Shown piece by piece: positions 20,228 through 39,915 of a DNA stretch of 64,000 bases. The first letter of the stretch is position 1; each line of letters opens with the position of its first letter. Source of the stretch: Bifidobacterium tissieri. GTDB taxonomy: Bacteria; Actinomycetota; Actinomycetes; Actinomycetales; Bifidobacteriaceae. Under the pieces are notes generated by a model that ran no database searches, was not told where the DNA came from, and saw nothing but the letters and a program-made list of their open reading frames with translations. The stretch spans positions 62,001 through 126,000 of the forward strand of contig NZ_MWWV01000002.1 in the NCBI RefSeq assembly GCF_002259645.1, written 5' to 3'. The translations under genes and the position numbers were made by a program.

Positions 20228-20311
20228 ACTTTGCAGGAAAGTGTCGAGTTTACGGCCACGCTCTCCGACGACGAACAGACAATCACCATCAGCCCGGCGC
20301 ACGGCGACAAC

Positions 20312-20350
20312 GCAAAAGGGTGGCGACCGCACCATCACGATCGCCACCCT
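20312..20350 (-). terminator. Rho-independent terminator ending the 12-gene minus-strand cluster
   Basis: On the minus strand AGGGTGGCGA (as its complement) pairs across a 14-nt loop and is followed by TTTT. It lies about 75 bp beyond the stop of the last cluster gene, so it most likely ends the transcript that starts near 39.9 kb. Confidence 0.75.
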
Positions 20351-20425
20351 CCGGCCCTCGCTTCAGGGGAATTCCCCAGAGGAATCACAAGGAATTGAAT
20401 AATACCCCCGAACCAAGCAATGGAA

Positions 20426-21295
20426 TCAGGGGACTATCCTCGCATCGGCGGGATAGCCTTGCATCAGTTCCTCCGTGGTGAGCGTGTACTCGGTGTAGGG
20501 GATTCCCTCAGACGACGCGGAACCGCCCCAAGCCTGTTGCACCATGCCAATCAACTGGGTTCCGTCGATCAGATGCACCCTTTCCCGCTGGCCCAGTGCG
20601 ATGGCCTGCGAGGAGTATCCTCCCGTGGTCATGTACATGAGTTCCTGCGTGCCCGCCAATACGTTCGCATCAACGAGTTTACGCACCGCCGGCAGACCCA
20701 CGTTGGAATGCACGTTCAGACATGCGCAGGCCACCAGACCTTCCACGCCGCCGAGTTCGGCGGTGAAGTCGAACCCGGGCTCCTGATATTCAGTCACCTC
20801 ATATCCCTGCTGGCGGCACAGATCGGCGCAGAAATGGCTGAACAGGTCAGGCTTGCCATAGAACGTCTGAATCAGCTCGGCCAGACTGGTCGCATGACGT
20901 GCCTGTGACATGACCGAGCCTTGGTTCATCTTCGTCTGCTCCTGCGGAATCAGACTGATATCGGTCCCCTTGGAACGCAACTCGGTGATCAGCGAATACA
21001 GATGTACCGGATTGGGACACCTGACCTCCCACGCACCGACGGACAGCGTGCTGTCTCCCCCGATCAATGAGTTCGAGCTCCTTCGTGCGTCCTTGGTTCC
21101 ATCGGCCTTGGCATACTCCCAGTGCGGATAAACAAGAGTGAACTCGTTGACCGCCACCGGCTGACCGCGTTTTTTCAGCTTGAATTTTCCTACCGGGAAA
21201 ACAATGTTGAATTCACTTGCGAAATCACTGCGCTTCTTTCTGCCATACGCCCAGATGCCGATGACGATGACGGCGATGATGATGATTGCTTCCAT
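20426..21295 (-). CDS. Membrane-anchored protein with a degenerate Mrr-like (PD-(D/E)XK) domain
   Basis: A 289-residue protein: an N-terminal helix (AIIIIAVIVIGIWAYG), a middle region without recognised fold, and from about residue 145 an Mrr/restriction-endonuclease-like domain. The order FCADLCRQQGYEV, then PGFDFTAELGGVEGLVACACLN, then MTTGGYSSQAIALGQRERVHLIDGTQL follows the Mrr pattern of helix, D-strand, Q/E-X-K strand and the late 'G.fs..A...A....i.lidg..L' block. The Asp survives, but the E/Q-X-K strand reads VACACLN, with no Lys, so cleavage looks lost and a binding role is more likely. It is the last gene of the 12-gene cluster, 41 bp after its neighbour, with AGAGGA before the ATG. 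Confidence 0.65.
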   Translation of the reverse strand: MEAIIIIAVIVIGIWAYGRKKRSDFASEFNIVFPVGKFKLKKRGQPVAVNEFTLVYPHWEYAKADGTKDARRSSNSLIGGDSTLSVGAWEVRCPNPVHLYSLITELRSKGTDISLIPQEQTKMNQGSVMSQARHATSLAELIQTFYGKPDLFSHFCADLCRQQGYEVTEYQEPGFDFTAELGGVEGLVACACLNVHSNVGLPAVRKLVDANVLAGTQELMYMTTGGYSSQAIALGQRERVHLIDGTQLIGMVQQAWGGSASSEGIPYTEYTLTTEELMQGYPADARIVP

Positions 21296-21336
21296 GGCTT
21301 CCTCTCATTGATTGGAATGATTGATCGCGATCCAGA

Positions 21337-22119
21337 TCACACGGCCGCCAGCGACCGGTTATGAATGAAGAATCCATCCGTATCGGTATAGACGACCATC
21401 CACGCCATGAACACGAGCAACGTGATGGCGATCTGTCCGATGGACGGACCTGCGGTAATGGATGCGACGACGGCGATGATGCAGACGTTCGTGATGAACG
21501 CGTACAGGCAGCTCTGCGCGAAGTTGCCCAGCATACGGAGCATGAGGTCATGCACGGTCTGCGAGGTAACCACGAACGGCACCACCACGATGGCGGCGAC
21601 CACGGCCACGATGGCGATGTATATCAACACCCGCCAGACGATCATCTGGGCATTCACCCACCCAAGCGCATAATCCACCATCCATGCGGAGAACAGTGCG
21701 ATGCAGATGGTGGCAATCAATGATCCCAACAGCTTCCAGACCTTCGACATCAGCTTGTTCTTCGTGCGCTCATAGTCGGAATCACCTACGATCGAATATC
21801 CTCCCCGCTGATAGGGGGAGAACAGGAACGGGCCGAACAGCATGTTGAGCATCATCATGAGCGGTGACTGAATGGCTCCCTGCACGATGAGCACAAGGAT
21901 GCTCATCAGGACAAACGGACTGGTCGTGATATTGAACAGACCGGTATCAACGTGCATGAACGCGTTGAGCAGAGCAAATATGCCGCCCGAGAACGGCAGG
22001 GCGCTCAGCCCCTGCGCGAATTCCGCGCCGGTCTCCGGATCAATGCTGGTGCGGATCATGACCGCGATCAGCCAGAATCCGACAATGAACCCGACAAGCA
22101 GGTATATCTTCTTTTGCAT
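21337..22119 (-). CDS. Polytopic membrane protein of the chaperone/GTPase cluster
   Basis: A 260-residue protein with about six or seven hydrophobic segments (for example KKIYLLVGFIVGFWLIAVMI, FVLMSILVLIVQGAIQSPLM and VWRVLIYIAIVAVVAAIVVV) and short loops. A cytoplasmic-looking loop near the middle holds SPYQRGGYSIVGDSDYERTKNKLMSK written here only in part: YSIVGDSDYERTK. I do not recognise a family. The ATG at 22119 is preferred; a GTG eight codons upstream is possible. It is tightly spaced with its neighbours in the cluster, so it is probably the membrane part of the same machine. Confidence 0.6.
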   Translation of the reverse strand: MQKKIYLLVGFIVGFWLIAVMIRTSIDPETGAEFAQGLSALPFSGGIFALLNAFMHVDTGLFNITTSPFVLMSILVLIVQGAIQSPLMMMLNMLFGPFLFSPYQRGGYSIVGDSDYERTKNKLMSKVWKLLGSLIATICIALFSAWMVDYALGWVNAQMIVWRVLIYIAIVAVVAAIVVVPFVVTSQTVHDLMLRMLGNFAQSCLYAFITNVCIIAVVASITAGPSIGQIAITLLVFMAWMVVYTDTDGFFIHNRSLAAV

Positions 22120-22170
22120 AGTCTCATCTCGTTTCCAGTTCACATACGGCTATCTGAAGGAAGCCGGCTA

Positions 22171-23328
22171 TCAGCCGATGGCGGAAAGCGCGATCACGCC
22201 GGAGGCACCAATCATCACGATCGCGCCCAGCACATACACCGCAACGCGCTTCACCCTTGCGGTATCCGGAACATTATCGGCAACGTTCAGCAGCAAGGCA
22301 CCAACGAACAGCACCGCAGCAGGCACCAAGGCGGACATCATGGCCTGCCACGGCAGGAGCCCTCCCGTCAGAGTGAGCCCGCTGGTACCGACGGCATTCG
22401 AAACGGCATTGTCCATCCCGCCGATTCGTGACAGCAGGAACGTGGCCACACCCGTCATGACGATGTAGCAGATTCCGCTTTGGAATCGATCACCTGCCGT
22501 CAGGACGCGAACATATTTCGTGCTCAGATACAGTGCGATGAACGTGCAGAAAACCACAAACGAGAACAGCGCTCCCCTGCCCGGCGTCATGGCTGTCATG
22601 GTATAGCCGTCGGGTAGCTGGCCCATAAGCTTGGCGACCACCTGAGTCTGCACGATGGCGACAAAAGGCCCGAACAACAAACTGCAGATGAGTCCCAGAC
22701 CGAGGGACAGGAAGGTGATTGGCGTAACGTGCAGCGACTGGGATGACGCGGCCGTTGCGGCGGAGGTCGGTGCGGGGGCGGCGGCGAATTGTGCGGACGT
22801 ACCGGCAGCGTTTCCTCCGGCAGAGCCGGCACCATACGGGCTGCCTGCCCCCTGCGCTGGCGTGCCCCATGACGATGCGGATGACGACGATGGCGAACCG
22901 CCGGAATATGACGTCGCGGCACCGGAAGGATTCATTGTCCCCCAGCCGGATGACGCTCCCGCCGGCTGTGGCGTAGGAGCCGGAGCGGGCGAGGGACTAG
23001 GACTAGGACTAGGACTACCCCAGGCGGAACCGTTCGAGGCGGAGGACGAAGGACCCGGTGCCGGAGCGGGGCTACCCCATGGGGATGCGTTCGACGCAGA
23101 GGACGAGGGAGACGGAGCGGGAGCGGGGCTACCCCATGCAGAACCGCTCGAGGATGCTGACGAGGGAGCCGGAGCGGGCGAACCCCATGCAGATGAGGAT
23201 TTACCCTGCGCGCTGTGGCTCTGTTGCGATTTCGATGACGTCTTGGAGGTATTCGCCTTGTTCGGATTCGGGGTCCCCCATCCTCCAGCATTCGACGTAT
23301 ACGGACTGGACTGGTTATTGCGTGGCAT
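22171..23328 (-). CDS. Membrane protein with a disordered N-terminus of WG(S/T)P repeats
   Basis: A 385-residue protein in two halves. Residues 1 to about 200 are low-complexity Ser/Pro/Ala sequence punctuated by seven Trp-Gly motifs (GWGTPNP, AWGSPAP twice, PWGSPAP, AWGSPSP, GWGTMNP, SWGTPAQ). From about 205 there are five hydrophobic segments (such as FLSLGLGLICSLLFGPFVAI and LFSFVVFCTFIALYLS). The repeats are encoded by a degenerate minisatellite around 22980-23210. WG(S/T) also occurs in the disordered parts of the GrpE-like and DO-GTPase2-like proteins of this cluster, so it may be a docking motif. No family name; AAGGAG lies upstream of the ATG. Confidence 0.65.
   Translation of the reverse strand: MPRNNQSSPYTSNAGGWGTPNPNKANTSKTSSKSQQSHSAQGKSSSAWGSPAPAPSSASSSGSAWGSPAPAPSPSSSASNASPWGSPAPAPGPSSSASNGSAWGSPSPSPSPSPAPAPTPQPAGASSGWGTMNPSGAATSYSGGSPSSSSASSWGTPAQGAGSPYGAGSAGGNAAGTSAQFAAAPAPTSAATAASSQSLHVTPITFLSLGLGLICSLLFGPFVAIVQTQVVAKLMGQLPDGYTMTAMTPGRGALFSFVVFCTFIALYLSTKYVRVLTAGDRFQSGICYIVMTGVATFLLSRIGGMDNAVSNAVGTSGLTLTGGLLPWQAMMSALVPAAVLFVGALLLNVADNVPDTARVKRVAVYVLGAIVMIGASGVIALSAIG
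22980..23210 (-). repeat. Minisatellite coding for the WG(S/T)P repeats
   Basis: Imperfect units of roughly 50-60 bp containing GGGGCTACCCCATG (plus strand) and GACGGAGCGGGAGC-like stretches, plus GGACTA triplets near 23000. All differences keep the reading frame, so the number of WG motifs may vary between strains. Confidence 0.65.
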
Positions 23329-23418
23329 GGCGTACGCTCCTTATCTCCTTAACTCCCCGCTGCGCCACCGGGCACAGCGCTCATTCTGCCTTCGGCCGAC
23401 AGACGCTCTCGCATCGGA

Positions 23419-26259
23419 TCAGTGCCGACCGAACGGCAGGAATTTCTTCATCTTGTCGATTACGCTCGGGTTGGCCGCCTCGTAAGCAGCCAAGCCGTCG
23501 ATGATCATGCCGAACAACGCGGTGAAATGGCCCTTGGGAAACGCGGTACCGTAGGTCTGCGAGAATCTGACGGCCACATGCTTGTCGAATTTGCGTTCAT
23601 CCTCCACGTACTTCGTCAGTTCGGAGGACTTCATATGCATACCGGTCAGCTGGCTCGTCAGGAACCGTGCCAGATCGATCGCCATGGCGTTCTGGTGAAG
23701 CTGGTCGGCGGATGCCCCGAAGCAACACGAATCCAAGGCCATCAGCAGCAGAATGTCATCGATCCGCTTGGAGCTGACCACGTTGCCGGCCACCTGCTTC
23801 ATCACGGTCATGTCATACGTTGACGGCACCGCTTTCAATTGCAACGTGGCACCCGATTTCGACGTAAGCACCACCGGGGTGATGGCGTCACCGACGGAGG
23901 CGACGAAGGCATTGACCTGATTCCCGGCCGCGCTCAACGGCAGACGCGGCCCAGTCTGCATAAGCGCATTGCACAGACCGTCGATGACCATGGGATCGGG
24001 ATTCCGCTGGGCATATGCGTTCGCCAGATTCGTTATGTGGAATTGATAGTCGATCAGTGTCAGACGCGCAGGCAACGGCAACGACACGTCCTTGCACAAT
24101 GCGACGATGGCGCGATAGTCATCGTATACGCGGTTGTCCACACGCAGGATGGGAAGCATCGCACTGGCCTGATCGATCTTGGTACGGTACCAGGTAAGGG
24201 GCATCGGAACCATACTGCGCACCGTCTGCGCGCAGACGCACAGCAGCGCGGCGGAAGGGGTGTTTCCGATCGTCCGCTCGCATACGGCAACGACGTCCCT
24301 GGCATGGTCCTGCCAAAAATCCTTCGGCAAATACGGCCCCGTTGTTTTCAGGAAGGCAAGAAATGCTCCCGGATCGTGGGAAGTCCGCGCCTGCTCCGCG
24401 AGCAGCGACACAACCAGCGATTGCAGACCGCTGGCGTAGCAGGACTGCAGATACCCGATTCGCGTCCGGGAGCCTTCCCCATCGGAGGACATGTACAACG
24501 TGTGGAACGCCGTGTACGCCATCGTCACACTGGACGGCAGACCGGAGGCGGCGGAACCGCCCATAGCGCCCGCACCGGTCGGGTCTCCCTCCAGAATGAT
24601 CAGCAGATCGACCATGCATCCCAACCGCGGGTCGGCACTGAGGGAACCCGCGAAATCGGTGACCAGACGGCGCGTGCCATTACCATCCGGATGATGCACC
24701 ACAACCTTGATGATCTTGTCGAGCGCCGTCGCATTACGCGTCCCCAATGCGGCTTTCATCTGCGCTGCGGACATGCCCGGTCGCAGATCAATGCCCTTCG
24801 CCACGGCGTCAAGCACCGCCTGTGATGTCCATTGCGCGTAAGCGTGCACGGTCCACGGCAGCGATGTTCCGGTGCCGCCGCTGAGTCCAAGATTCACATC
24901 CGGATTGCCGGTCAGCTCGTCGAACAGCACCACGTCGACCTTCTCGCCCAGCTGGGCGAGCACCGTATCGGCGAGCGCGTGCGACTGCGCATACATGTCC
25001 TGGCTCGGTGCCGCATTGGTGAACACACCGAACAGCAGATCCAGCGCACGCTCCCGCGCGGTCAGCGCATACGTCTTGTCGCTTCTGGTCGCATACCCGA
25101 ACACGTCGGCGAGCAACGTGCGCTTGTCCTCGGGGAACACCGTCGTGCGGCATTCGTCGAAGAGACGATCGGACACCTTGCGGAGTACGTCGCCGCCGCA
25201 GTGGTCCCTCATGAAGACCAGTGCCCGTTCGGCAGCGGATGTGTCGAGCTCATCGAAGGCGGTCAGTCCCTGCACCAGTTGGAACAACGTATAGGCGTCG
25301 GCGATCACGATGTCGGCCGTCGTATGGTCGGTGGCGTTGAGGAAGTCGTGGAATCGATGCAGGCTGTCCGGTACGGTCTGCATGGCGTCCACGAGGAAAT
25401 CGCACAGCTGCCGAACGGTTTCGTCGACCATAGGGTTCGGCAGAGGTACTTCGCCGCGTTCGTCGAATACGTAGTTGCTCATGGCGAGCTGCGGCAGCGA
25501 GCCGTTCATGCCGTCCACGCCACGCATGATGTGCGCATCGGCGGCCATGGGGTCGTATTCGTAGGTGGAGAATGAGTAGGTGTACGCCTGCCGCAGCGGC
25601 AATGCCATCTGCAGCGCGGCGACCCACAGGTTGAAGTTTTCGGCGCTGTCCCGGATGATGATGCGACGCAACGCTCCTCCCTGCTCACGGTTGAGGAAGC
25701 AGGCAAGCATGAGCTTGAGCATCTCGTCACGGTCATCATCCATGAGGAAGTCCTGCACCGCATCGAAGGTGATCTCGTCGTTGGGTTCGATGTCGAGCGT
25801 GCCCAACATCGCGGGACGTTCGTCGCTGCGCGCCTTGGTGATGTCCATGGTGCGTTGGAAGCTCGGCGATTCAAGGTACTCGCACGGATAGGTGCCGGTC
25901 TGCATCATCGTCGCCAGCGGCAATGCGACGGCGTGGGCGATGAAGTTTCCGCCACGGATGGATCCCTCCGGGTAATCCCGTCCGATATAAGTGGATAGCG
26001 CCATGCCGTAGAGCGCGTCCGGACCGGACAATGGTCCGCTGTAATCGCGCTTGGGATAGCATTCCTCGATCTGTTCGGGGGTGGGCAACGGCGGGTACTG
26101 GTCTCCCACGGGTGCCTTGTACTGTTCGAGGACGCCGATGGCGTTGCGGTTGGCGATCCACTGTCGCATGCCCGGCGAGTACGAGTACACCTGATAGCCG
26201 GATGATTGTCCCTCGATGCCCTGTCTGCATGAGGTGTAGATGATCTGTTCGGTTTTCAT
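23419..26259 (-). CDS. GTPase-associated protein 1 (GAP1)-like protein
   Basis: A 946-residue soluble protein. The N-terminus, IIYTSCRQGIEGQSSGYQVY followed by SYSPGM, is what I know as the start of the GAP1-N2 domain of 'GTPase-associated protein 1'; the middle section contains the expected GNFIAHAVALP block, and the long alpha-helical remainder fits the GAP1-M and GAP1-C regions. GAP1 proteins are encoded beside double-GTPases (DO-GTPases) in conflict-type operons and are thought to be their partners; no biochemistry is known to me. Here it begins 16 bp after the stop of the DO-GTPase1-like gene, with GGAAGG before the ATG. No signal peptide or membrane helix. Confidence 0.75.
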   Translation of the reverse strand: MKTEQIIYTSCRQGIEGQSSGYQVYSYSPGMRQWIANRNAIGVLEQYKAPVGDQYPPLPTPEQIEECYPKRDYSGPLSGPDALYGMALSTYIGRDYPEGSIRGGNFIAHAVALPLATMMQTGTYPCEYLESPSFQRTMDITKARSDERPAMLGTLDIEPNDEITFDAVQDFLMDDDRDEMLKLMLACFLNREQGGALRRIIIRDSAENFNLWVAALQMALPLRQAYTYSFSTYEYDPMAADAHIMRGVDGMNGSLPQLAMSNYVFDERGEVPLPNPMVDETVRQLCDFLVDAMQTVPDSLHRFHDFLNATDHTTADIVIADAYTLFQLVQGLTAFDELDTSAAERALVFMRDHCGGDVLRKVSDRLFDECRTTVFPEDKRTLLADVFGYATRSDKTYALTARERALDLLFGVFTNAAPSQDMYAQSHALADTVLAQLGEKVDVVLFDELTGNPDVNLGLSGGTGTSLPWTVHAYAQWTSQAVLDAVAKGIDLRPGMSAAQMKAALGTRNATALDKIIKVVVHHPDGNGTRRLVTDFAGSLSADPRLGCMVDLLIILEGDPTGAGAMGGSAASGLPSSVTMAYTAFHTLYMSSDGEGSRTRIGYLQSCYASGLQSLVVSLLAEQARTSHDPGAFLAFLKTTGPYLPKDFWQDHARDVVAVCERTIGNTPSAALLCVCAQTVRSMVPMPLTWYRTKIDQASAMLPILRVDNRVYDDYRAIVALCKDVSLPLPARLTLIDYQFHITNLANAYAQRNPDPMVIDGLCNALMQTGPRLPLSAAGNQVNAFVASVGDAITPVVLTSKSGATLQLKAVPSTYDMTVMKQVAGNVVSSKRIDDILLLMALDSCCFGASADQLHQNAMAIDLARFLTSQLTGMHMKSSELTKYVEDERKFDKHVAVRFSQTYGTAFPKGHFTALFGMIIDGLAAYEAANPSVIDKMKKFLPFGRH

Positions 26260-26275
26260 CGATCAATCCTTCCGG

Positions 26276-27520
26276 TCAGAGTACCTTGTTGAGGTGCAGC
26301 AGCCAGAACATGGCGTCCTCGATGCGCTTGGGAATCGGCGGGGCGATAGTGCCGTCGCTCGCGGGTTCGCGACCGTATGCGGAGAACGCGAAGCAGTGGT
26401 TGGTGGCGTAGTTCATGTCAAGGGTGTTGATGAAGCTGCCATAGTCCCATCGGTCGAGCATCGACCTCACTTCCTGATTCACCGAGTCGGCGTCGGTGTC
26501 GTCGAACATGCCGCGCTGCACGTGCGGTGACGGCTGGGACAGTCTTCCTCCCGGAGGCAGCAGATTCTTGTCTTCAAGCACATCGAGCTTGGAGAATGCC
26601 GCAGCCACGGGGATGGCGATCTTCTGGCTTTCCTTCAACCCGTTCTGGTCGCGGATGAGCCTGGCAACGTCATTGATCACCTTCGTGGGGTCGGAGTCCG
26701 GCTCGTAGTCGGCGGAGATGGACGCGCGGATGGACGCATCGTCACTAATGGCATCACGGACATGCTGATTGGCCAGTGGATCGATAAGGAACACGATGCC
26801 GGATGACTTGGCCACGTATTTGGCCACGACCTGGATGGTATCCATATTGGTCCAATCCTCACCGGCGGAATCGAAGAACACCAGCATCTTCGGCTTCACC
26901 TTGCCGAAGAACCCACTGGACTGCATTTTCAGCATGCCAAGGATGGGCCTGTTCTCCGTCATGGTGTTGCCGGTTAGATGTGTTGTGGTCTGCGGGATAG
27001 GCTGCCCCTTGTACAGGTAGTCCTCGAACCGCGTGCGGTATTCACGCTGGTCCTCGCTGCCGTACAGCTGGAATGTGCCATGGAACGGGCCGAACAGGTG
27101 CTTCATCATCTCATGGATGAGCACGCCCACGTAGGTGCTCTTGCCCGAGCCTCGGGTACCGATCAGGGAGATGATCATGGCCTCGTCATTGTCGATGGTG
27201 GACGGCAACGTGTTATGGCATGACGGGCATACCCTTGTGCGACTGACCTGACGGCACCAGTCGCAGACCGCGCTATCCGGCATGGAGAATTTAGGCGTCT
27301 TGTGAGCGCGGAAATGATGAGGTCCAAGCGGGGCCTGACTCAGATGCTTGTATTCCTGCATCTTCTTGTCGGGCTCACCAGCACCGGGAACACCCACGAT
27401 CTTCCCGCTGGGGTCGCGCTGGGCGCAGATCATACGGGAGTCGCAGGCGAACTCCACGTCACCAATGGCATGCTCGGCGAAACAGAATGGGCATACATAC
27501 TTCAATTTCATGGTGATCAT
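26276..27520 (-). CDS. Zinc-ribbon GTPase, DO-GTPase1-like
   Basis: A 414-residue protein. Two zinc ribbons open it (KYVCPFCFAEH, and CDWCRQ with CPSCHNTLP around residues 86-104), followed by a P-loop GTPase: Walker A GTRGSGKSTY at about residue 120, G3-like FFDSAGED near 222, and G4-like FSKLD near 310. It resembles the double-GTPase 1 (DO-GTPase1) domain found next to GAP1 proteins. The ATG overlaps the stop of the preceding gene (ATGA), so translation is coupled. All nucleotide-binding motifs look intact. A nucleotide-controlled switch acting with the GAP1-like protein is the natural reading. Confidence 0.75.
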   Translation of the reverse strand: MITMKLKYVCPFCFAEHAIGDVEFACDSRMICAQRDPSGKIVGVPGAGEPDKKMQEYKHLSQAPLGPHHFRAHKTPKFSMPDSAVCDWCRQVSRTRVCPSCHNTLPSTIDNDEAMIISLIGTRGSGKSTYVGVLIHEMMKHLFGPFHGTFQLYGSEDQREYRTRFEDYLYKGQPIPQTTTHLTGNTMTENRPILGMLKMQSSGFFGKVKPKMLVFFDSAGEDWTNMDTIQVVAKYVAKSSGIVFLIDPLANQHVRDAISDDASIRASISADYEPDSDPTKVINDVARLIRDQNGLKESQKIAIPVAAAFSKLDVLEDKNLLPPGGRLSQPSPHVQRGMFDDTDADSVNQEVRSMLDRWDYGSFINTLDMNYATNHCFAFSAYGREPASDGTIAPPIPKRIEDAMFWLLHLNKVL

Positions 27521-30500: not shown

Positions 30501-30522
30501 GATAGAGGTTGTCCTGTGCCAA
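27517..30522 (-). CDS. Large zinc-ribbon and FnIII-repeat protein with J-like N-terminal regions
   Basis: A 1001-residue soluble protein. Residues 1-90 (NLYLILGL, then a helix pair ending MPEQRQQVFLEAK) and again about 170-250 (NLYDMLDPGN, ending KDDTSRAAYDEYL) have the length and the LGL/R-x-x-Y-D pattern of J-domains but no HPD tripeptide. Residues about 320-370 hold Cys-X2-Cys pairs (CPWCGAL, CSSCGG, CPQCHH, CGQCGFD) forming tandem zinc ribbons. From about 510 on, several beta-sandwich repeats of about 90 residues (for example VSWPASSSKEVSYVLLRKQG and ITWNGIPGTGVVAVWRRTDH) look like fibronectin type III modules. It starts at a TTG behind GGAG. A scaffold linking Hsp70 with client recognition is an inference. 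Confidence 0.6.
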   Translation of the reverse strand: MAQDNLYLILGLFDFSNSLESDPAPEQRIAQAVAAVRPKLSQRANRAGGDPAAQRALELLKTVNTLNMPEQRQQVFLEAKNIVEKSITKQVKLYAARGYILTGEITKIAQKVSKQCNCAISDADVRSRVHGVPVKEQEEGPKGTELARPKSYSKYHGQESKLKVYGHANLYDMLDPGNTKVRSVPTATWRAKAEAAKKALPNKVNMEVSDHQKLYNLCIGTAFKDDTSRAAYDEYLAYESLMSILDEVKEVTSVTKKLDSALAEQYIDRLYEAGAKNGHPITRDEASGYLLWFCGKSSILYMPPAEHADESTLPEPCPWCGALADPDAVNCSSCGGRILENCPQCHHTNRADVHYCGQCGFDYTNLAQASAMCDEAKSLAGALRFDDADQLVDQAANLWPGFAEAKAVKQTIAQQRTLVGPSAQRLTDAVKALNLIEAGKLYDGIRRRSPKFENRELRDAIDAGVARAKAAMEAAPRTISSVLEAYNACHDYPGLAAALAANPPKPVADVTVRPDGTAHCMYVSWPASSSKEVSYVLLRKQGSHPLDEHDGERLTETSGTSFVDRTVEAGEPYGYAVVVKLGPLSSALTASKTVTVLFDVANVKVSPSQSTIQITWNGIPGTGVVAVWRRTDHAPTRPGDGEQVTNVVSSGLLDQGLRNDVTYYYAIFVSYRLANGRTVYSQGVQCSGIPAAPPEPIDFLFAQLQADGSFTLEWEVPEGGEARFSYTTGDLSFKDGDIVAESELNAQTMPLPITATGDDTGTFTLPDDSIYHIVAATVKNGQAVIGASATVSSRRAVEITNITASGANAVVLFDWPEESDRVLLAWRTDRYPASAEERGATVTSVNRRTYDLHKAIIVKGIQPNVPYYFSLFARLGSGDSASYSAGSNRMFSFGKASKATYHVEVRKSLLGKIKSATLVIESTDSLPEMELRAQMGVIPAYSNQGLLVASIPAQNGGGTHRIELPAGSLNKGMFAKLFFKDLSIYQTSSLTQAAGTSPEIG

Positions 30523-30584
30523 GGTTCATTCACTCCGTGTGATGTCGTGTGCTTCCATGTGATGTGTGCTTATGCGGCCAACGG

Positions 30585-32684: not shown

Positions 32685-32739
32685 ATCTCGTCTCTCCTAA
32701 CTTGCCCGACTATCGCTCAACGAACCGATGTGCCATCGA

Positions 32740-34401
32740 TCACATGGTCATCTGCAGACCAGTGCTCACACGGGCCTTGGCCTCTTCGATCTCCTCCTGT
32801 GTCATCACGTTCTCGCTCTTGAAGACGGCGTCGACCTTCTCGCCCGTGTCAGGCTTCTGCGCGTGCAGGTTGATGGTGCCGTCCTCCTGCAGGTCGAGGG
32901 TGATCTCAATCGGCGAGTTGGCGGGCGTGTTCGGCGGCAGGATCAGCTCGGCGTCACCCAGCTTGAGATCCTCGTCCACCTCATAGGAATCCACCTTCTC
33001 CGGGGTTTCGTACAGCTCGATCGCGGCGAGGGGCTGATTGTCCTCCTGAGTGGCGAAGGTCTGCGTGGCGCGGGCGGGCAGCTCATCGTTCTTCTTGATG
33101 ATGTTGAAGATGAGAAGCTGATTCGTCTCGGGGTTGAGCGCCTTGATGCCGAAGCTCTTGGTGGAGACGGAGATCACCTTGGTATCAGCCGTGATGTTGG
33201 TGGGCATGACGGAGCCGCCACCGATGGTGGGCAGGATACGGGTTTCGCCGGTGGTGGTGTCACGGGCCACATCGTTGCCTTCGGCGTCCTGTTCCTTGAC
33301 CTCGTTCTCCTTGACCTCGCTCTGCTTGGTGGCCTGCAAGATCGCGAAGATTGCGGCGCCCTTGGCCACGGCCTCGTCCGGCTCGAAGTTCTTGGTCTCG
33401 ATGTCGAACTCGCGCTTGATCATCTCCTGCACCTGCGGCATCTTGGTGGAGCCGCCCACGAGCAGGATCTCGTCCACCTTCACGCCTTCGGCCTCGGCAT
33501 CGGCCATGGCCTTGCGTGTAAGGGAGACGGTGGTATCGAGCAGATCCTTGGTGACATCCTCGAATTCCTCGCGGGACACCTCAATGCGGGCGTGGTTGCC
33601 ATTGTAATCAAGGATGGTCTTGGCGGTGGTCCTGTTCGACAGCGCCTGCTTCATCTTCTCGGCCTTGAGCGCCAGATCCTGCAGGAACTCATTATTGTCC
33701 TCATCGGTGAACGGATCGCCATCATAGCCGCTGCTCTCCAGGAACTTGTCGACCATGACGCCGGAAAGCGCATCATCCCAGTTCTTGCCGCCCAGATCAT
33801 GATCACCTTCCGTGGTGATCACGCGGATCTCACCGTTGGTGATCTTCATCACGGTGATATCGAAGGTGCCACCACCCAGATCGTAGATCAGCACGTTCTT
33901 GTCCTCATCGGCGCGGGTCACGCCGTAGCAGATGGCGGCGGCCGTGGGCTCCTCGATGATCGCCAGCACATTGAGTCCGGCGATCTCGCCGGCCTGCTTC
34001 GTGGCAGTACGCTCGGCCTCGCCGAAGTACGCCGGGCAGGTGATCACCACGTCCTTGACCTCGTCGTCCAGCTGCGCGCCAGCCTGCTTGGCAAGCTCAC
34101 GCAACGTATACGACGACACCTCCGTGGGGGAAATGTCCTTGCCGTCGATGGTGATGGCGACCGGGCTCTTGCCGATCAGGCGCTTGACGAAGGCCGACGT
34201 GCGTTCCGGTTCGAGCACGGCGGTGTCCTTGGCCTCCTGGCCGACGATGACCGTGCCGTCCTCGCCCCACTGCACCACGGAGGGCGTGGTGTCGGAGTTC
34301 GTATCCATGTTCTTCACCACGGTCGGGCGGCCATCCTCATCCTGATAGGCGATGCAGGAGTACGTGGTACCAAGATCGATGCCGTATACATACTTGGACA
34401 T
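32740..34401 (-). CDS. DnaK-like Hsp70 chaperone (non-housekeeping paralogue)
   Basis: A 553-residue Hsp70. The ATPase domain is complete (YGIDLGTTYSCIAY, IIEEPTAAAICYG, YDLGGGTFDITV, LLVGGSTKMPQVQEMI). The link to the substrate-binding part is unusual: about 45 acidic/polar residues (SEVKENEVKEQDAEGND and on) stand where DnaK has VLLLDVTP, and the helical lid is cut to about 40 residues ending QMTM, without the EEVD-like tail. So it is shorter than the about 620-residue housekeeping DnaK and is probably dedicated to this cluster. A GrpE-like gene precedes it and an Hsp70-vWA gene follows. Confidence 0.9.
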   Translation of the reverse strand: MSKYVYGIDLGTTYSCIAYQDEDGRPTVVKNMDTNSDTTPSVVQWGEDGTVIVGQEAKDTAVLEPERTSAFVKRLIGKSPVAITIDGKDISPTEVSSYTLRELAKQAGAQLDDEVKDVVITCPAYFGEAERTATKQAGEIAGLNVLAIIEEPTAAAICYGVTRADEDKNVLIYDLGGGTFDITVMKITNGEIRVITTEGDHDLGGKNWDDALSGVMVDKFLESSGYDGDPFTDEDNNEFLQDLALKAEKMKQALSNRTTAKTILDYNGNHARIEVSREEFEDVTKDLLDTTVSLTRKAMADAEAEGVKVDEILLVGGSTKMPQVQEMIKREFDIETKNFEPDEAVAKGAAIFAILQATKQSEVKENEVKEQDAEGNDVARDTTTGETRILPTIGGGSVMPTNITADTKVISVSTKSFGIKALNPETNQLLIFNIIKKNDELPARATQTFATQEDNQPLAAIELYETPEKVDSYEVDEDLKLGDAELILPPNTPANSPIEITLDLQEDGTINLHAQKPDTGEKVDAVFKSENVMTQEEIEEAKARVSTGLQMTM

Positions 34402-34446
34402 GATGATTCTCTTTCTTTCTGTGTGTTGTGATTGGTATGGTTGGAG

Positions 34447-35430
34447 TCACTCGCCGGCGGTCGTGACCGTCGGCGCCGCAGCTTGAACAGCCGGAGCGGC
34501 CGGAGCGACGACCTTGTACACGACGACCTTCTCCTTGAACAGTGCGGTCTTGCCGAACAGGTAACCGGGAGCGAGCGAGCGTACGACGGTCTTGCGCTTG
34601 GCTGGATCATCGGTCTCCTCGTACCTGACCATGCGCTGGCGTGACGCGTTGAACGCGTCTCCGGGCTCGCTCGCCACTTCCTCGACATCGTTCTTTTCGA
34701 GGATGTCCAGCAGCATGTATTCGATGTCCTCGAACGCACGATCCGTCTTCTCGCCTTCCGCTGACAGGTCGGCACGCATCTTGCGCACGGTGTCCAGAGC
34801 TTCGGCCACGTCGTATAGCACCGGCTGGATAAGGTTGTCCTTGAGTCCCTCACGCAGCTTGAGCAGTTCCGAATGCTGACGATCGATGATCGTTTCTTTC
34901 GTATCGTCATACTGGAGTCGCTTGGTGAACTGCTGTGACAGTGCGTCCAGGGATTCCTTGATATCGGTAAGTTCCGTTGCAGTGCTCTGCGCGGTCTGCA
35001 ATACCTCCTGAACGGTGTTCAGCACCTGTTCGTCGGCGACCCTCTGTACGGGGACTTCCTGTGCAGACTCCGGCGTATCGGAGGATTCCGCTTCGGAAAC
35101 GGATGGTGTCTCCTCGACGGGAGTTTCCTGTTCGACCGCGTCCGGCAACGGCATCGTCCGTTCCTCGGATTCGGTGGTCACCGATGGGGCAGCCGCCGGA
35201 GGCGTTGGCGGTACCGGAGGAAGTTCCGTGGATTGCGGCATTGCGCTGAATGTGGACGGACTGCCGTCGTATGACGGTTCCACCAGAACATCGTCGGCTC
35301 GTCCGGACTGCGGCGCGATGCTCGGAGGCATGGAACCCCACTGCGCGTTCTGGGGAGCGACCGGCTGCTGTGGCTGCTGTGGTACGGCCCCGAGCGGGGA
35401 TGGCCAACCTTGATTGGTGTCAGTACTCAT
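34447..35430 (-). CDS. GrpE-like nucleotide exchange factor with a long disordered N-terminus
   Basis: A 327-residue protein. The first about 130 residues are Pro/Gln/Ser/Glu-rich and disordered and contain WPSP and WGSMPPS. Then comes a long coiled-coil helix (VLNTVQEVLQTAQSTATELT to YDDTKETIIDRQHSELLKLR) and a beta-domain whose pattern (LDILEKNDVEEVAS..GDAFNASRQRM..., VRSLAPGYLFGKTALFKEKV, VVYKVVAP) follows GrpE. GrpE proteins release ADP from DnaK. Its place directly before the DnaK-like gene supports this. Compared with GrpE the N-terminal tail is far longer. AAAGGA precedes the ATG. Confidence 0.75.
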   Translation of the reverse strand: MSTDTNQGWPSPLGAVPQQPQQPVAPQNAQWGSMPPSIAPQSGRADDVLVEPSYDGSPSTFSAMPQSTELPPVPPTPPAAAPSVTTESEERTMPLPDAVEQETPVEETPSVSEAESSDTPESAQEVPVQRVADEQVLNTVQEVLQTAQSTATELTDIKESLDALSQQFTKRLQYDDTKETIIDRQHSELLKLREGLKDNLIQPVLYDVAEALDTVRKMRADLSAEGEKTDRAFEDIEYMLLDILEKNDVEEVASEPGDAFNASRQRMVRYEETDDPAKRKTVVRSLAPGYLFGKTALFKEKVVVYKVVAPAAPAVQAAAPTVTTAGE

Positions 35431-35469
35431 ATGCTGTCCTTTGCATGGTGAGAGGAAATGTGGACCGGA

Positions 35470-37380
35470 TCAGTGCCGCTTACGCGGCTGGGGGCGACGG
35501 GGAGCCAGCGGGGAGACCGGACGCTTTGGTTTCGCCGGAGGGGTTTCCAGTTGCGCTGGGCTGGGACTGGAACCAGCAGGTTCGACAGTCCGGGCAGGCT
35601 GGGGCTGAGAAGCCGGTTCGGGCTGCGGATTGGGAGCGGTCTGGCTCTGGGCATAAGACGAGCCCCATGCCGACGGTGTTGGAGTAGCTGTCGTCGGCTG
35701 CTCCGGCACGCCCGTAGTAGCCGACGAGGATTGAGTGGGAGTTGGCATCGGCTGTGGCGTCGCCTGCGAAGGAGCGGCCTGAGGCTGCGACGCCGCCTGA
35801 GCCTGAGCCGCGGCCTGGACCCTGGCATTCTCCAGAATCTGGTCGAACAGGCCATATACCGGTTCCTTGACAGGAAGATCCGCCTTGGCATACGTCCGGG
35901 CCCCAAGGGCCTTGCCGAGGGCTGGGTCCTGAATGTCCAGAATCCAATCGACGACGTCGGTCACGTTATATGGCTCAAACCCCTTGCCATTGCCGGCGGT
36001 GTGGCCTATGGAGCTTACGGCGAAGAACCTGGATGTCGCAAAGTCCTGTTCGATGTGAGCCACCACATCACCCATGTCATAATCCATAAGGAACTGCCGA
36101 CACAGGAAATCGGTGGTGTTCGCCGGGTCGGTGAAGGTTTCGGGATCGGCCGCCATGACTGCATTCACGGCTTTGCTACCGATCCGCTCCTCCAACAACG
36201 GTGTGGAGTCGATCTTGTTGATCACCACGGCGAGAGGAGTGCGGATCCTACCGTTTCGGTCGGTGTCCGAGACGTTCTGCAGCTTGATGTGCAACGCGCT
36301 TCTCACATCCTCAAGAGGGGCATTGCTGATCGATCCACTGTCCCCGGGATCAAGGCTGTCTTTGCATTTCGCGGCAAAGTCCCGAATACTCAACGGGTCG
36401 ATGACGAGGACAATGCCTTCGCAATGCTCATACTGGTTCTGCCCCTCATTCTCGGCTCCATTCACGAATGTCTCACCGGCGATGTCGAGGATCTGCATGA
36501 GTCGGGACGGCACAAGTCCATCACCTTCAAGGAAGAAGCTGAACGAGATCGTACTGCTACGATCCTGCTCGGTCACCGTCGCGGTCTTCTCCACTATGCC
36601 ACTGCGATAGGCGGCGGTCATGGACTGATACATGCGCTCGCGATCATTGTCGTAGAACCGTACGTGCAAGCCGTTCTTCGGCGCGATGTCATCGATGACG
36701 GATTGCGCATACGCGGTAATGAACGCGCTCTTGCCGGCCGATGCTCCACCGACCACGGGAATGCAGATGGCACGGCTATTGCTGGAAAGGACGGACTCCT
36801 CACGACCGGCCTTGTAGCAGAACGGGCACAGGGCCTGCAAATCCCGTCGGGGATGCTTGCGGTCGAGCACACTGCATGCAAGTTTCTGCCCGCATGTGCA
36901 GGTGTGATGCAGAATACCGTACTTGCCAGGTAGCAGAGCGAGATGCTTGGCTCCGCATTGGTCGCACACGTAGACAGGCAAAGCGAATCGGTTGTGGCAT
37001 GTGTCGCAGACATTCGACACCTTGCGGATCTGGAAGTACAGCAGGTCGAACAATCGCGCAATCTGACTGAGCACTATGCCGATGATGTCGATCAGCACGA
37101 AGCCGATCACATGAGGCAACAGCATGGCCAGACAGATGAACGCCGAGGCGATCACCATCGAACCCGCGGAGAACAGCCAGTAGATGTAGCGGAGCGCCAC
37201 CTGAGGCACCATGATGATGAGTGAGGGCACGATCGGCTTGCTTGCTGCCTTGGCGGTGATATCCTCAATCGATTTGCCGATGTTCGCTTTGGTGGTAGTG
37301 ATGACCCTGACGATATCGCCGAACCCCGGACCGTAGAAATACGATGTCCGGGAAGGTTCCTGTTCCTTCGTGTTGCCCAT
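35470..37380 (-). CDS. Membrane zinc-ribbon GTPase, DO-GTPase2-like
   Basis: A 636-residue protein with two or three hydrophobic segments near residues 50-115 (PSLIIMVPQVALRYIYWLFS, VLIDIIGIVLSQIARL), Cys-X2-Cys zinc ribbons at about 125-195 (CDTCHNRF, VCDQCGAKH, CTCGQKLAC, CPFCYKAG), then a GTPase: Walker A GGASAGKSAF near 211, G3-like DIAGE near 290 and G4 NKID near 390. This order matches the double-GTPase 2 type. From about 500 the C-terminus is a Pro/Gln/Ala/Thr-rich disordered tail with SAWGSSYAQ and a basic end (RRPQPRKRH). All nucleotide-binding motifs are intact. It probably anchors the machine at the membrane. AGAGGA precedes the ATG. Confidence 0.75.
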   Translation of the reverse strand: MGNTKEQEPSRTSYFYGPGFGDIVRVITTTKANIGKSIEDITAKAASKPIVPSLIIMVPQVALRYIYWLFSAGSMVIASAFICLAMLLPHVIGFVLIDIIGIVLSQIARLFDLLYFQIRKVSNVCDTCHNRFALPVYVCDQCGAKHLALLPGKYGILHHTCTCGQKLACSVLDRKHPRRDLQALCPFCYKAGREESVLSSNSRAICIPVVGGASAGKSAFITAYAQSVIDDIAPKNGLHVRFYDNDRERMYQSMTAAYRSGIVEKTATVTEQDRSSTISFSFFLEGDGLVPSRLMQILDIAGETFVNGAENEGQNQYEHCEGIVLVIDPLSIRDFAAKCKDSLDPGDSGSISNAPLEDVRSALHIKLQNVSDTDRNGRIRTPLAVVINKIDSTPLLEERIGSKAVNAVMAADPETFTDPANTTDFLCRQFLMDYDMGDVVAHIEQDFATSRFFAVSSIGHTAGNGKGFEPYNVTDVVDWILDIQDPALGKALGARTYAKADLPVKEPVYGLFDQILENARVQAAAQAQAASQPQAAPSQATPQPMPTPTQSSSATTGVPEQPTTATPTPSAWGSSYAQSQTAPNPQPEPASQPQPARTVEPAGSSPSPAQLETPPAKPKRPVSPLAPRRPQPRKRH

Positions 37381-37430
37381 GGTTTCCTCTCAACGCTTCC
37401 GACTGGTGAATATCCGCATCCGATGAAGGG

Positions 37431-37781
37431 TCAGCTCATCTGCGAGACGGTCTGTGACAGTTGCTGGTATTGCTCGATCAGGCCAAGTATCGCCATGCGG
37501 CCGAGGAATACGATGACGCCGATCCAGACAAGGGTCAACACCACGCCGATAATCTTGCCCGCCCGGGTTCCGTACACGTCGGTCAATGTCGAGTAGTATT
37601 CCTTGAACCCTTGAGCCAAGCCCCTGATAACGCCGAACGCCAACGCAAGTGCCATAAGGCCGACGAAAAGCGTCATAATGGTTCCCGCGATCATCGGGAC
37701 GAGTGACAGCAACCAGATGATCAGCTTGATGATCAACCAGATCGCTATACCTATGAGGATCAAAGCAATGATATATTGCAT
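37431..37781 (-). CDS. Small membrane protein of the cluster
   Basis: A 116-residue protein with two N-terminal hydrophobic segments (YIIALILIGIAIWLIIKLII, MIAGTIMTLFVGLMALALAF) and one near residue 80-100 (IIGVVLTLVWIGVIVFLG), and a polar C-terminus ending in QLSQTVSQMS. No family recognised. Located between the NERD-FtsK-like and DO-GTPase2-like genes, it may help assemble the membrane complex. AAGGG lies before the ATG with wide spacing. Confidence 0.6.
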   Translation of the reverse strand: MQYIIALILIGIAIWLIIKLIIWLLSLVPMIAGTIMTLFVGLMALALAFGVIRGLAQGFKEYYSTLTDVYGTRAGKIIGVVLTLVWIGVIVFLGRMAILGLIEQYQQLSQTVSQMS

Positions 37782-37878
37782 GGTCGTGTTTCCCTTCTTT
37801 CCCCTACTATTCCCTGTGTCTCATTCTTCTTTCAAAGTCTGTATTCGCCATACTCGCGGCAGACCCGATTCCGTCATG

Positions 37879-39915
37879 TCAGCCGCCAAACGGATATCGC
37901 TCCTTGATGGCTTCGGCATTCAGCGCATGGAACCGGATGTTCTCGCGCAATCCATCCGCTGTGATCATGACTGCCGTGCCGAAATCCGTCTCCCCTATGG
38001 CGAGCGCCGCCGCTGTTGCCTTCCGTGCCAAAGCGGCGTCCACTCCGTGTAGCATCGCCGCGGACTGCCCCTTCACCCCGATGCGGTAGAGGATTCGGGT
38101 CTGCGCGGATTCCACCAGATCGGCGGGAAACGCCTTGGCCGATGGGTTCTGTGTGGACAGCACCACGCAGCATCCGGCTTTGGCACCCTCATCGATGATC
38201 TTGCGCAGGTATCGTCGGATATCGGAAAGCTGCTCGGCCTCCGTTTCGTCGACGTCCGATTCACCGTCGGCACTGAACTTGTCGAACAGATCTTCACAGC
38301 CATGAAACACCATAACGTCAAGCGGCATTCCGGCATGATCCGGAACGGACCAGTAGTCCGAGACCCCCGTCTTGCGGAGTTTTCTCAGACGCGAATTGAG
38401 CGACGTATAGGCATCCTGCACTGTTCCACTGACCAGATCCAGCCCATCGCCCAAACGGGCATAGGAATGGGCGTGCTCGGCAAACGCGGAAAACTGCGAG
38501 GTCCGTTTGCAGTCAATGATTCGCAGATCCACGTCATCGGACTGATCAAGTGCCGCCACCAGCGCAAAGGTACGCCCCACTTCGCCGGATCGGTTGGCAC
38601 CGGCAATCGTCATGCAGGAGACTCCGCTGAAGGACACCTCTACAGGATTGCCGTCGGCGTCCTCTCCACAGGTGACGGACATCGTAGCGGGATCGACCGT
38701 GGGAATGGACGACAGGTTGGATGCCTTACGACGGGTTGTTGACTTGCCGCGGCTGGATGAGGGGGAACCCTCAACAGTGGAACCCCGCTTCGTCGCCGGT
38801 TTCCGTGTCTTGGTTGTCGCAGCCGATGACGACGAGGATGATTCGCCACGGGTATCGTCGTGACGACGACTTGCACCGGCCTTCCCCTTAGCGGACTTGC
38901 CGGTGCCGCTTTTGGCCTTGCCCGCGCGTTTGGGGTTCGGGTATTCGATGCCCTGTGCCCTGTCGCAGGTGGGTCGCGGCCATAGGGTCCGGTCACGCGC
39001 CTCATCCGGAGAGAGTGTGGTCTGGTGCTCGTATAGCTTCACCAGAGACGCAAGATATCCTTCCTCCCATGTCGGCTCAGTCGACGCATAGGAGGGGTCC
39101 GTGGAAAACCGCTGCTGGATCATCGCCACGAACGAGGAATACGACATGGCGGGAATGCCACCCGGCCAGCAGATGTCGGCATCGAGCGTGGCCTCGCCCG
39201 CCTGACCGGGGACCAGAACCACATAGGATTCCACGGTGCAGTCGGATCCGCTGTCGGACAGGTACTCGCTCATGTGCTCCTGCGCGATGCCCATGTTGCA
39301 GCTGAACACATAGGGGTCGTTCGCCACCACACGTGCCACCGGATATACACAGAACATGGCGTGCCCTGGAATCAGTGTGTGGTAATCAAGACCCGCACGA
39401 TAGTTTTTCACATCCACCAGAAAGATGTGGGATCCGAACTTCAATACACAGTCGATGTCGGTGCCATAGTCGTTTTTACTGCCATCGTCTTCGATGTTCC
39501 AGACGGACCAGAATGATACGCAACGGTCGAGCACGCCATCCCATGTCAGCAGTTTGGCGAATACCTCCTCGCCGCGGGAGCCGCTACGCACCTGCCTGCT
39601 GCCGAAGCCGGACTCGGACAGTCCTGAACCGGGATGACCATAGATACGTTCGCCGTGGATATCATGACCGAGTGTACTGCGATATGCCTTCACCCACTTC
39701 TGCTCGGCTTTGGGCAGTAGATCGGCGGTGATGACCGGAGTGCCATCAGGATTCGTCTGCAGACCATATTGTGCAATTGCCGCAGGCCATGCTGCGGCAA
39801 TCTCCTCATCGGTGGCTCGGCGCAGACGATTGACATCCATGGAAACAGGACGCGGAGAGACTTGAGATGACGGCGCGGAAGGCTGGCCTCTGAAACGCGA
39901 AAACACGTTAGCCAT
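37879..39915 (-). CDS. NERD nuclease-like domain fused to an FtsK/EccC-like domain with lost Walker motifs
   Basis: A 678-residue protein, first of the cluster. Residues about 85-270 resemble NERD (nuclease-related) domains: GSRGEEVFAKLL, then GTDIDCVLKFGSHIFLVDVK with the D...D-X-K pattern of PD-(D/E)XK enzymes. A Lys/Ser/Thr-rich basic linker (about 330-400) follows. The C-terminal part has the course of an FtsK/SpoIIIE motor (IIDCKRTSQFSAF, VVLSTQNPSAKAFPADLVES, TRILYRIGVKGQSAAML), but the P-loop reads GANRSGEVGRT, without the Lys, and the Walker B reads VMVFHGCEDLF, without the Asp-Glu pair. So the motor part is probably a pseudo-ATPase that binds a partner, as the degenerate EccC domains do. 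I start at the ATG at 39915. Confidence 0.7.
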   Translation of the reverse strand: MANVFSRFRGQPSAPSSQVSPRPVSMDVNRLRRATDEEIAAAWPAAIAQYGLQTNPDGTPVITADLLPKAEQKWVKAYRSTLGHDIHGERIYGHPGSGLSESGFGSRQVRSGSRGEEVFAKLLTWDGVLDRCVSFWSVWNIEDDGSKNDYGTDIDCVLKFGSHIFLVDVKNYRAGLDYHTLIPGHAMFCVYPVARVVANDPYVFSCNMGIAQEHMSEYLSDSGSDCTVESYVVLVPGQAGEATLDADICWPGGIPAMSYSSFVAMIQQRFSTDPSYASTEPTWEEGYLASLVKLYEHQTTLSPDEARDRTLWPRPTCDRAQGIEYPNPKRAGKAKSGTGKSAKGKAGASRRHDDTRGESSSSSSAATTKTRKPATKRGSTVEGSPSSSRGKSTTRRKASNLSSIPTVDPATMSVTCGEDADGNPVEVSFSGVSCMTIAGANRSGEVGRTFALVAALDQSDDVDLRIIDCKRTSQFSAFAEHAHSYARLGDGLDLVSGTVQDAYTSLNSRLRKLRKTGVSDYWSVPDHAGMPLDVMVFHGCEDLFDKFSADGESDVDETEAEQLSDIRRYLRKIIDEGAKAGCCVVLSTQNPSAKAFPADLVESAQTRILYRIGVKGQSAAMLHGVDAALARKATAAALAIGETDFGTAVMITADGLRENIRFHALNAEAIKERYPFGG

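Follow-up and report, generated by a model that had tools for sequence, protein, structure and literature searches.

The window analyzed here is a 64,000-nucleotide stretch of Bifidobacterium tissieri DNA (assembly GCF_002259645.1, contig NZ_MWWV01000002.1, positions 62,001 to 126,000). On its minus strand, positions 20426-39915 hold twelve close-packed open reading frames (ORFs), called genes A to L in the order of transcription (Table 1), and this cluster is a variant of the GAP1-N2/DO-GTPase systems of the HSP70 theme (Kaur et al., 2020, PMC7159879). The intergenic gaps from A to L measure 97, 50, 39, 45, 55, 62, -4, 16, 90, 51, and 41 bp, with K taken to start at an internal ATG at 22119, in agreement with a preliminary description that had reported twelve same-strand genes with short gaps. 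The same description gave the cluster one promoter and one terminator: a terminator-like hairpin does follow L (absent from the list of a simple terminator scan), whereas promoter-like matches (4) stay below the shuffled mean (7.5), leaving the promoter unsupported. Simple hydropathy predicts transmembrane (TM) segments in B, C, J, K, and L.

Table 1. Genes and other features of the cluster and its boundaries, in window coordinates.
Feature	Position	Strand	Details
A: NERD (PD-(D/E)xK-type) domain, basic Ser-rich linker, degenerate FtsK domain	37879..39915	-	678 aa; proposed effector
B: small membrane protein, ~3 TM	37431..37781	-	116 aa; hydropathy
C: membrane-anchored DO-GTPase2	35470..37380	-	636 aa; zinc-ribbon-like cysteines; TM near N-terminus
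D: GrpE-like, low-complexity N-terminus	34447..35430	-	327 aa; alignment members match Pfam GrpE
E: Hsp70, ATPase motifs intact	32740..34401	-	553 aa; Pfam HSP70
F: Hsp70 with C-terminal vWA (MIDAS-type motif)	30585..32684	-	699 aa; Pfam HSP70, VWA
G: J-like N-terminus without HPD, double zinc ribbon, TPR-like stretch, FnIII repeats	27517..30522	-	1001 aa; proposed scaffold/sensor
H: zinc-ribbon DO-GTPase	26276..27520	-	414 aa; P-loop and sub-cut-off Pfam matches
I: GAP1 (GAP1-N2, GAP1-M, long remainder)	23419..26259	-	946 aa; Pfam
J: low-complexity N-terminus, 4 TM	22171..23328	-	385 aa; hydropathy and profile matches
K: ~6-TM membrane protein	21337..22119	-	hydropathy
L: N-terminal TM anchor, Mrr-like domain without catalytic lysine	20426..21295	-	289 aa; Mrr_cat; variable tail gene
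Intrinsic terminator-like hairpin 3' of L	20311..20360	-	-32.8 kcal/mol, then UUUU
Acquired block, missing here in five same-genus genomes	20118..40096		flank comparison

The two zinc-ribbon GTPases and the GAP1-like protein named in the preliminary description are borne out, and the DO-GTPase and GAP1 profile assignments, on which it had made its single-system reading depend, hold. C matches Pfam DO-GTPase2 (32.2 bits, cut-off 27), H lies just under the same cut-off of 27 with 26.7 bits for DO-GTPase2 (short by 0.3) and 25.2 bits for DO-GTPase1, and I matches GAP1-N2 (62.8 bits) and GAP1-M (31.4 bits; Pfam cut-offs 24 each). I starts 16 bp after H, so that a protein with GAP1-N2 and GAP1-M adjoins a DO-GTPase gene. 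A PDB profile search with H gave no meaningful solved relative, and the matches of GAP1 in such a search (helical designs, EF-hand, and other proteins) are weak and were not trusted. In the window, C and H have intact P-loops and the Walker B words FFDSAGE and DIAGE, and C has a TM segment. Counted by regular expressions on ORFs of at least 250 aa, the P-loop is kept in 52/52 H-type and 43/43 C-type ORFs, a Walker B of the D-x-A-G-E type in 50/52 and 32/43, and a G4-type motif in 45/52 and 25/43, respectively. The Hsp70 motifs occur in 35 to 38 of the 38 E-type and in 23 of the 25 F-type ORFs, and a MIDAS-type motif in 22 of the 25 F-type ORFs. Because the motifs are kept across homologous ORFs, and all of those scored are present in the window proteins, the GTPases and chaperones look live.

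Among the chaperone genes, E and F match Pfam HSP70 with 355.8 and 327.4 bits, and F combines two HSP70 stretches with a vWA domain (VWA, 48.6 bits). The window's D protein alone matches nothing in Pfam; 28 of the 32 members of its alignment match GrpE. In G, Pfam recognizes a double zinc ribbon (DZR), FnIII is below the Pfam cut-off for the protein alone, and profiles add a TPR-like stretch (369-502) and, from the 31-member family, a match to titin/fibronectin (E 1.7e-12). A SIS1 J domain is matched weakly by profile (E 0.008, residues 164-236). However, none of the 38 long G-homologous ORFs has HPD in its first 300 residues, and Pfam DnaJ matches none of 30 G-type N-terminal stretches. The "full Hsp70 set" claimed earlier is therefore to be taken with reservation as regards the J-like part.

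A is a NERD-FtsK protein, as first described, with NERD under the Pfam cut-off (17.5 bits, E 0.006; cut-off 22.1) and FtsK recognized by profile against the solved FtsK 2ius (E 9e-7). In 7/7 orthologs E116, D153, D155, D168, and K170 are invariant and the Walker A lysine is lost, and Walker B is degenerate; in our reading of the PD-(D/E)xK pattern, the NERD residues would be catalytic. Some match to A (E ≤0.001, mostly single-domain) occurs in 27 of 189 Bifidobacteriaceae genomes. Full-length orthologs, counted by hand from a score list, are found in 7/189, namely in 5 of the 6 genomes with GAP1-N2 and 2 of the 183 without (p 6.6e-8, in a Fisher test that treats related genomes as independent). 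Phage records gave no match to A. The Bifidobacterium jacchi copy lies on a 3.9-kb contig, where a very acidic low-complexity ORF (L132 2-775, minus strand), divergent from the NERD-FtsK gene, runs to the contig end; by eye it is like the acidic N-termini of the Clostridial toxin-type proteins treated below, and it has no Pfam match.

In the two genomes without GAP1-N2 (G056 and G087), A is divergent from a different Hsp70-DnaJ-GrpE-FtsK cluster; one protein therefore accompanies two chaperone clusters. In G087 this second cluster comprises an Hsp70 (425.8 bits), a DnaJ-TPR protein (DnaJ, 1.8e-8), GrpE (8.5e-20), and an FtsK ATPase (5e-24) with intact P-loop, and the layout in G056 is the same by sequence. 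The order (G056 C1 L142/L143; G087 C252 L140) is Hsp70, DnaJ-TPR, GrpE, FtsK/SpoIIIE ATPase, and a coiled-coil membrane protein, and by eye, of three possible domains in the ATPase, the middle one holds its single intact P-loop. Two further ideas were dropped: that the FtsK domain of A is demonstrably closer to Clostridial HerA or to the G056/G087 ATPase (hhalign probability <1%, with very shallow profiles), and that a small protein in G056 is WXG100-like (Pfam gave no support).

The membrane and tail genes differ in how far they extend among relatives. Homologs of B were found by tblastn beside C in three of the four window-type Bifidobacteriaceae relatives, the fourth (L059) giving a 35-bit profile match, and by eye look-alikes of ~70 aa precede C in five Bacillota loci. 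J has profile matches in all four, three of them inside the profile and the fourth at only 22 bits. In the neighborhoods of five relatives, K has a homolog only in B. criceti (39%) and L has none. L supports the Mrr-like anchor proposed earlier through Pfam Mrr_cat (54.4 bits, cut-off 21), blastp against E. coli K-12 Mrr (E 4.8e-5), and its N-terminal TM segment. The catalytic lysine is missing: Q-x-K reads A-x-L in a hand alignment to E. coli K-12 Mrr anchored on VGxP words, the automatic alignment opening a gap at this place. A PDB profile search with L found no solved relative at E up to 1. The tails of relatives hold other genes. In P. radai, L059 15178-17331 encodes a 718-aa variable tail protein, coiled-coil by eye, with no Pfam match over cut-off. 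In B. stellenboschense, a second G-like protein (L060 15106-16977, 214 bits to the G profile) lies downstream of GAP1 and J; by eye it has C-terminal Sel1/TPR-like repeats, and a TPR fusion is named for the HSP70 theme by Kaur et al.

The cluster is part of a block gained as a unit. GAP1-N2 occurs in 1/9 genomes of the genus and 6/189 of the family. All five same-genus genomes compared, those with both searched flanking genes on one contig, are without the ~20-kb block: the ABC ATPase and TetR genes lie 141 bp apart in place of ~20 kb in G006 (L128), an ABC-2 gene adjoins the ABC-FtsX pair in G001, G002, and G008, and in G007 the stretch 40857-41296 is found there instead. No target-site duplication was found at the block ends, the longest shared word being 8 bp. 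Short words at 20192-20222 and 40054-40073 of the window, TTCAACA / TGTTGAA-like by eye, align with the short spacer of the sister genomes; the insertion may have split or doubled an operator. A short-chain dehydrogenase gene (41356-42285) and a second TetR-type gene (42402-43115) match elsewhere in 3/5 sister stretches, ~4 to 9 kb from the first TetR gene; the region has therefore been rearranged beyond the block.

The genes also travel together outside the genus comparison, a test suggested in the preliminary description. Four relatives, B. criceti, Gardnerella PSS_7772B, P. radai, and B. stellenboschense, share the window order with losses: B. stellenboschense is without A, P. radai is without F, and none of the four neighborhoods yielded L. 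With the H alignment as query, one genome per species was scanned, giving 49 loci from many phyla, one of them in an archaeal metagenome-assembled genome (MAG). Counted with profiles built from Bifidobacteriaceae, and with many loci cut by contig ends, I (GAP1) and G are each present in 45, E (Hsp70) and C in 38, D (GrpE-like) in 35, and F (Hsp70-vWA) in 25, and all 301 matched ORFs share the strand of the query. The common order across phyla is D-E-(F)-G-H-I, with C before D, after I, or at both ends. A split into type I and type II by the position of C alone was rejected, since several loci have C at both ends and L085, which has C first, falls outside the window clade. Because the order recurs elsewhere and five sister genomes are without the block, the arrangement is beyond chance, and the earlier proposal of a single system with DO-GTPases, GAP1, and an Hsp70 set is upheld by recurrent order and matching profiles.

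Clades were taken from a tree of H, in which rows L072, L092, and L101 are less than half filled. There, the five Bifidobacteriaceae rows of window type make up a clade of their own (support 100/100) beside 15 rows of Bacillota and Treponema (the 20 rows together 96/89), and B. jacchi belongs to a clade of 9 rows (100/100) that also contains Clostridia and a Fermentimonas. We read this as probably at least two transfers between phyla. Plasmid records gave two Rhodococcus matches, at ~25% to H. Among 391 sampled genomes of the class to which the L088 host belongs, six matched: the genome of the query itself, G853 (probably the L104 locus again), and G720, G783, G833, and G891. Of the last four, G833 and G783 have several core genes; no toxin gene was seen in these four by eye, no family search having been made there.

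Around the 49 cores, strand, length, and distance served to pick 145 accessory ORFs. A chosen 43 of these and a few others were searched with Pfam, a non-random sample that makes the counts lower bounds, and a toxin-type domain is supported in 7/49 loci. These are a colicin-type DNase in L062 (Ruminococcus flavefaciens Y1; 3e-31), four genes beyond GAP1 in a core of order C-D-E-F-G-H-H-I; LHH nucleases in L066 and L068 (E 2e-21 and 1e-16); the putative metallopeptidase DUF6782 in L084 and L088 (E 6e-7 and 7e-7), a candidate toxin judging by its place and N-terminus; Endonuclea_NS_2 in L092 (E 2e-24); and TNT in L104 (E 5e-11). A SUKH gene follows each of the three LHH or colicin-DNase genes (L062, E 1e-16; L066, 7e-11; L068, 2e-18), and these three loci are members of the 15-row clade next to that of the window. 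In the 9-row clade, a toxin-domain or acidic gene directly precedes grpE in all six loci that have grpE plus upstream sequence (L084, L088, L090, L092, L100, and L104); in L090 and L100 this gene is acidic with a C-terminus without assignment.

The acidic N-termini were compared over their first 60 residues in 21 pairs, each against 1000 shuffles. Four pairs, L084-L088, L084-L092, L088-L092, and L062-L066, are alike beyond composition (0/1000 each), which links proteins with differing C-terminal domains: DUF6782 (L084 and L088) and Endonuclea_NS_2 (L092) in the one group, colicin DNase (L062) and LHH (L066) in the other. This pattern was not seen in the window. Twelve of the 21 pairs exceed 20/1000. 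The nine between-clade pairs without the L068 LHH protein range from 4 to 472/1000, the pairs of that protein from 16 to 820/1000, and a 202-aa acidic protein of L068 gives 147 and 199/1000 within the window-side clade. HerA/FtsK-type ATPases of ~1050 aa, with P-loops intact in checked copies, adjoin the core in L062, L063, L064, and L068; others lie upstream of the toxin-type genes in L084, L088, and L092, with further relatives in L094 and L102. Transglutaminase-like proteins form a cluster of 7 loci, two of them Pfam-tested, and the remaining scanned accessory ORFs are ordinary flanking genes or have other domains or no assignment. Near a D-E-F-G-H-I-C core of an Aminicenantes MAG, L079 16352-19132 encodes a TPR-CHAT protein (CHAT, 209 bits), another possible effector.

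Toxin and immunity genes next to the core in some of its closest relatives suggest that the chaperones hold and release toxic proteins. We judge it rather probable that the cluster belongs to the HSP70 theme of GAP1-N2/DO-GTPase conflict systems, was acquired horizontally, and uses GTPase-gated chaperones to release a toxic client. This reading starts from what is seen directly, namely gene content and order, intact GTPase and Hsp70 motifs, predicted TM segments, gain as a block, recurrence in many phyla, and the toxin-type genes of relatives. In this view, the core would keep exchangeable toxic cargo bound to a chaperone complex and deploy it under the control of the GTPases. By family and TM segments, the two GTPases and GAP1 may form a membrane-linked switch, with the J-like/FnIII protein G as a possible sensor or scaffold. 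Because the Hsp70 set is intact and relatives have toxin-type genes, Hsp70, Hsp70-vWA, and GrpE could bind and remodel the client in a gated manner, the GTP and ATP cycles setting the threshold for its release. In the window the most likely client would be the NERD nuclease A, its dead FtsK serving as a docking or DNA-binding part, and the inactive Mrr-like L may bind DNA or act as a decoy. In some Clostridia and one Bacteroidota, toxin-type proteins with acidic N-termini would take the place of this client. Place, conservation, and association thus suggest that the client differs by lineage, toxin-type in Clostridia and NERD-FtsK in Bifidobacteriaceae.

Several observations weigh against the chaperone-client reading. 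A is conserved, not polymorphic, and is missing from B. stellenboschense. Neither the window, including the surroundings of A, nor its four window-type Bifidobacteriaceae relatives (Pfam having been run on one of their tail genes) yielded a recognizable toxin-immunity pair, and among the 49 loci no toxin was found outside Clostridia and one Fermentimonas, in what is the chosen sample of accessory ORFs given above. Individual loci are also imperfect: the LHH-SUKH pair of L066 has an H-type GTPase alone for company, near a contig end and with no GAP1 found; the LHH gene of L068 stands 645 bp away from the preceding gene; and L083, L091, and L096, of the same order and outside the 9-row clade, have no toxin-domain or acidic gene before grpE. 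PADLOC, run on 10 of the 12 proteins, returned only L (PDC-S02, 2.5e-8, and two weaker models) and a weak A. Finally, Hsp70 and FnIII also fit envelope upkeep.

A client-releasing system of this kind could act in two ways. The first, intracellular suicide or abortive infection, in which the complex would detect invasion near the membrane and release a nuclease into its own cell, has in our view a little under an even chance. Immunity genes of the SUKH kind are more usual for toxins exchanged between cells, and their presence in three related loci speaks against it, as does the lack of any identified sensor of phage parts. Patchy gain as a block is in its favor. It is also the published reading of the family (Kaur et al., PMC7159879), whose theme of inactive modules suits the combination seen here of a live-looking NERD with dead FtsK and dead Mrr.

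The second is toxin delivery, in which membrane GTPases, Hsp70s, and HerA/FtsK-type ATPases would export tagged toxins into rivals while SUKH protects kin, the window cargo being NERD-FtsK; we regard it as doubtful. The toxin-type domains of the seven loci with their SUKH neighbors, the N-termini alike beyond composition (L062-L066; L084, L088, and L092), the occurrence in some of these loci of HerA/FtsK ATPases whose P-loops are intact, and the presence of NERD-FtsK beside the Hsp70-DnaJ-GrpE-FtsK cluster of G056 and G087 all point this way. However, no export channel or signal was identified, grpE and not an immunity gene comes after the toxin-type gene in the six loci of the 9-row clade, N-terminal similarity across the two clades is weak and does not extend to the L068 LHH protein, and Kaur et al. 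(PMC7159879), in the parts considered, see no secretion features in most systems. Exchange between cells is thus favored by the immunity genes, and action inside by the lack of an identified export route together with the published reading. An extended form is unlikely, if worth stating: the core would be an undescribed toxin-handling and delivery machine of many phyla, built from GTPase-gated Hsp70s, HerA/FtsK ATPases, and tagged polymorphic toxins, with a fixed NERD and dead FtsK docking in Bifidobacteriaceae that also serves the second Hsp70-DnaJ-GrpE-FtsK machine.

An envelope-stress or proteostasis module without a conflict role is improbable: the Hsp70 and GrpE-like proteins, five proteins with predicted membrane segments, and a 2024 phage-shock-protein paper, parts of which note a DO-GTPase in some psp operons and predict it in membrane-related stress, are consistent with it, but the relatives' toxin-type genes, patchy distribution, inactive nuclease and FtsK modules, and clean single-site gain argue against it, and envelope surveillance, suggested in the preliminary description, found no direct support in this analysis.

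DO-GTPase/GAP1 systems were predicted in 2020, and the toxin-type and SUKH genes beside the core make the question of their client testable: whether the chaperone complex holds and releases a toxin, and whether that toxin acts within the cell or beyond it. If true, gating of an Hsp70 set by two GTPases would be a new way of toxin control.

Kaur et al. (2020, PMC7159879) named the DO-GTPases and GAP1 and predicted conflict systems; a literature search on the family names returned this paper and a passing mention, with no experiment. Their HSP70 theme, ~14% of GAP1-N2 neighborhoods, comprises HSP70 and GrpE, sometimes with a second HSP70, together with an FNIII protein that is typically a fusion to DnaJ or TPR, and in a subset a second gene has an HSP70 domain but no peptide-binding domain. 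The earlier statement that no described system joins DO-GTPase/GAP1 to an Hsp70 set therefore falls, as this paper describes GAP1-N2/DO-GTPase with HSP70, GrpE, and DnaJ-FNIII. The window shares with these systems GAP1-N2 plus GAP1-M, mobility, further membrane proteins, and two DO-GTPases with zinc ribbons and the Walker B glutamate, one with a TM segment, and with the theme HSP70, GrpE, a second HSP70, and an FNIII protein with a J-like part. In contrast to the theme, the second HSP70 carries a vWA domain, missing from the theme's text, the J-like part is without HPD, and the likely effectors would be NERD-dead-FtsK and dead Mrr. In the sections of PMC7159879 considered, most systems are without features indicating secretion of the primary effector, FtsK (also predicted inactive) and Mrr-like domains are named only among VMAP-system effectors, and NERD is named nowhere. 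Toxin and SUKH genes stand in the window's relatives, whereas the main text, as far as covered, is without LHH, SUKH, and TNT, and the core occurs in more phyla than the "predominantly actinobacteria and firmicutes" given there.

The relatives also resemble the polymorphic toxin systems of a 2012 study (PMC3482391), which in the parts examined has the same kinds of toxin domain, SUKH immunity, and a T7SS-type route that the HerA/FtsK ATPases near the relatives' cores recall; those parts have no Hsp70/GTPase route and do not mention "chaperone". Type III-A CoCoNuTs (PMC11090510, in part) likewise join Hsp70-like, vWA, FtsK/EssC-type ATPase, and inactive PD-(D/E)xK parts. However, they have an McrB-type GTPase, McrC, and HEPN, their considered text does not name DO-GTPase or GAP1, and their Hsp70-like motifs are degenerate, whereas those of the window are intact. 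New with respect to the description of Kaur et al. are A, with its kept NERD and dead FtsK, which also stands beside a second chaperone cluster; the Mrr-like domain of L without its catalytic lysine; and, in related loci, the seven toxin-type domains, the SUKH genes after three of them, and the toxin-type or acidic gene before grpE throughout the six loci of one clade.

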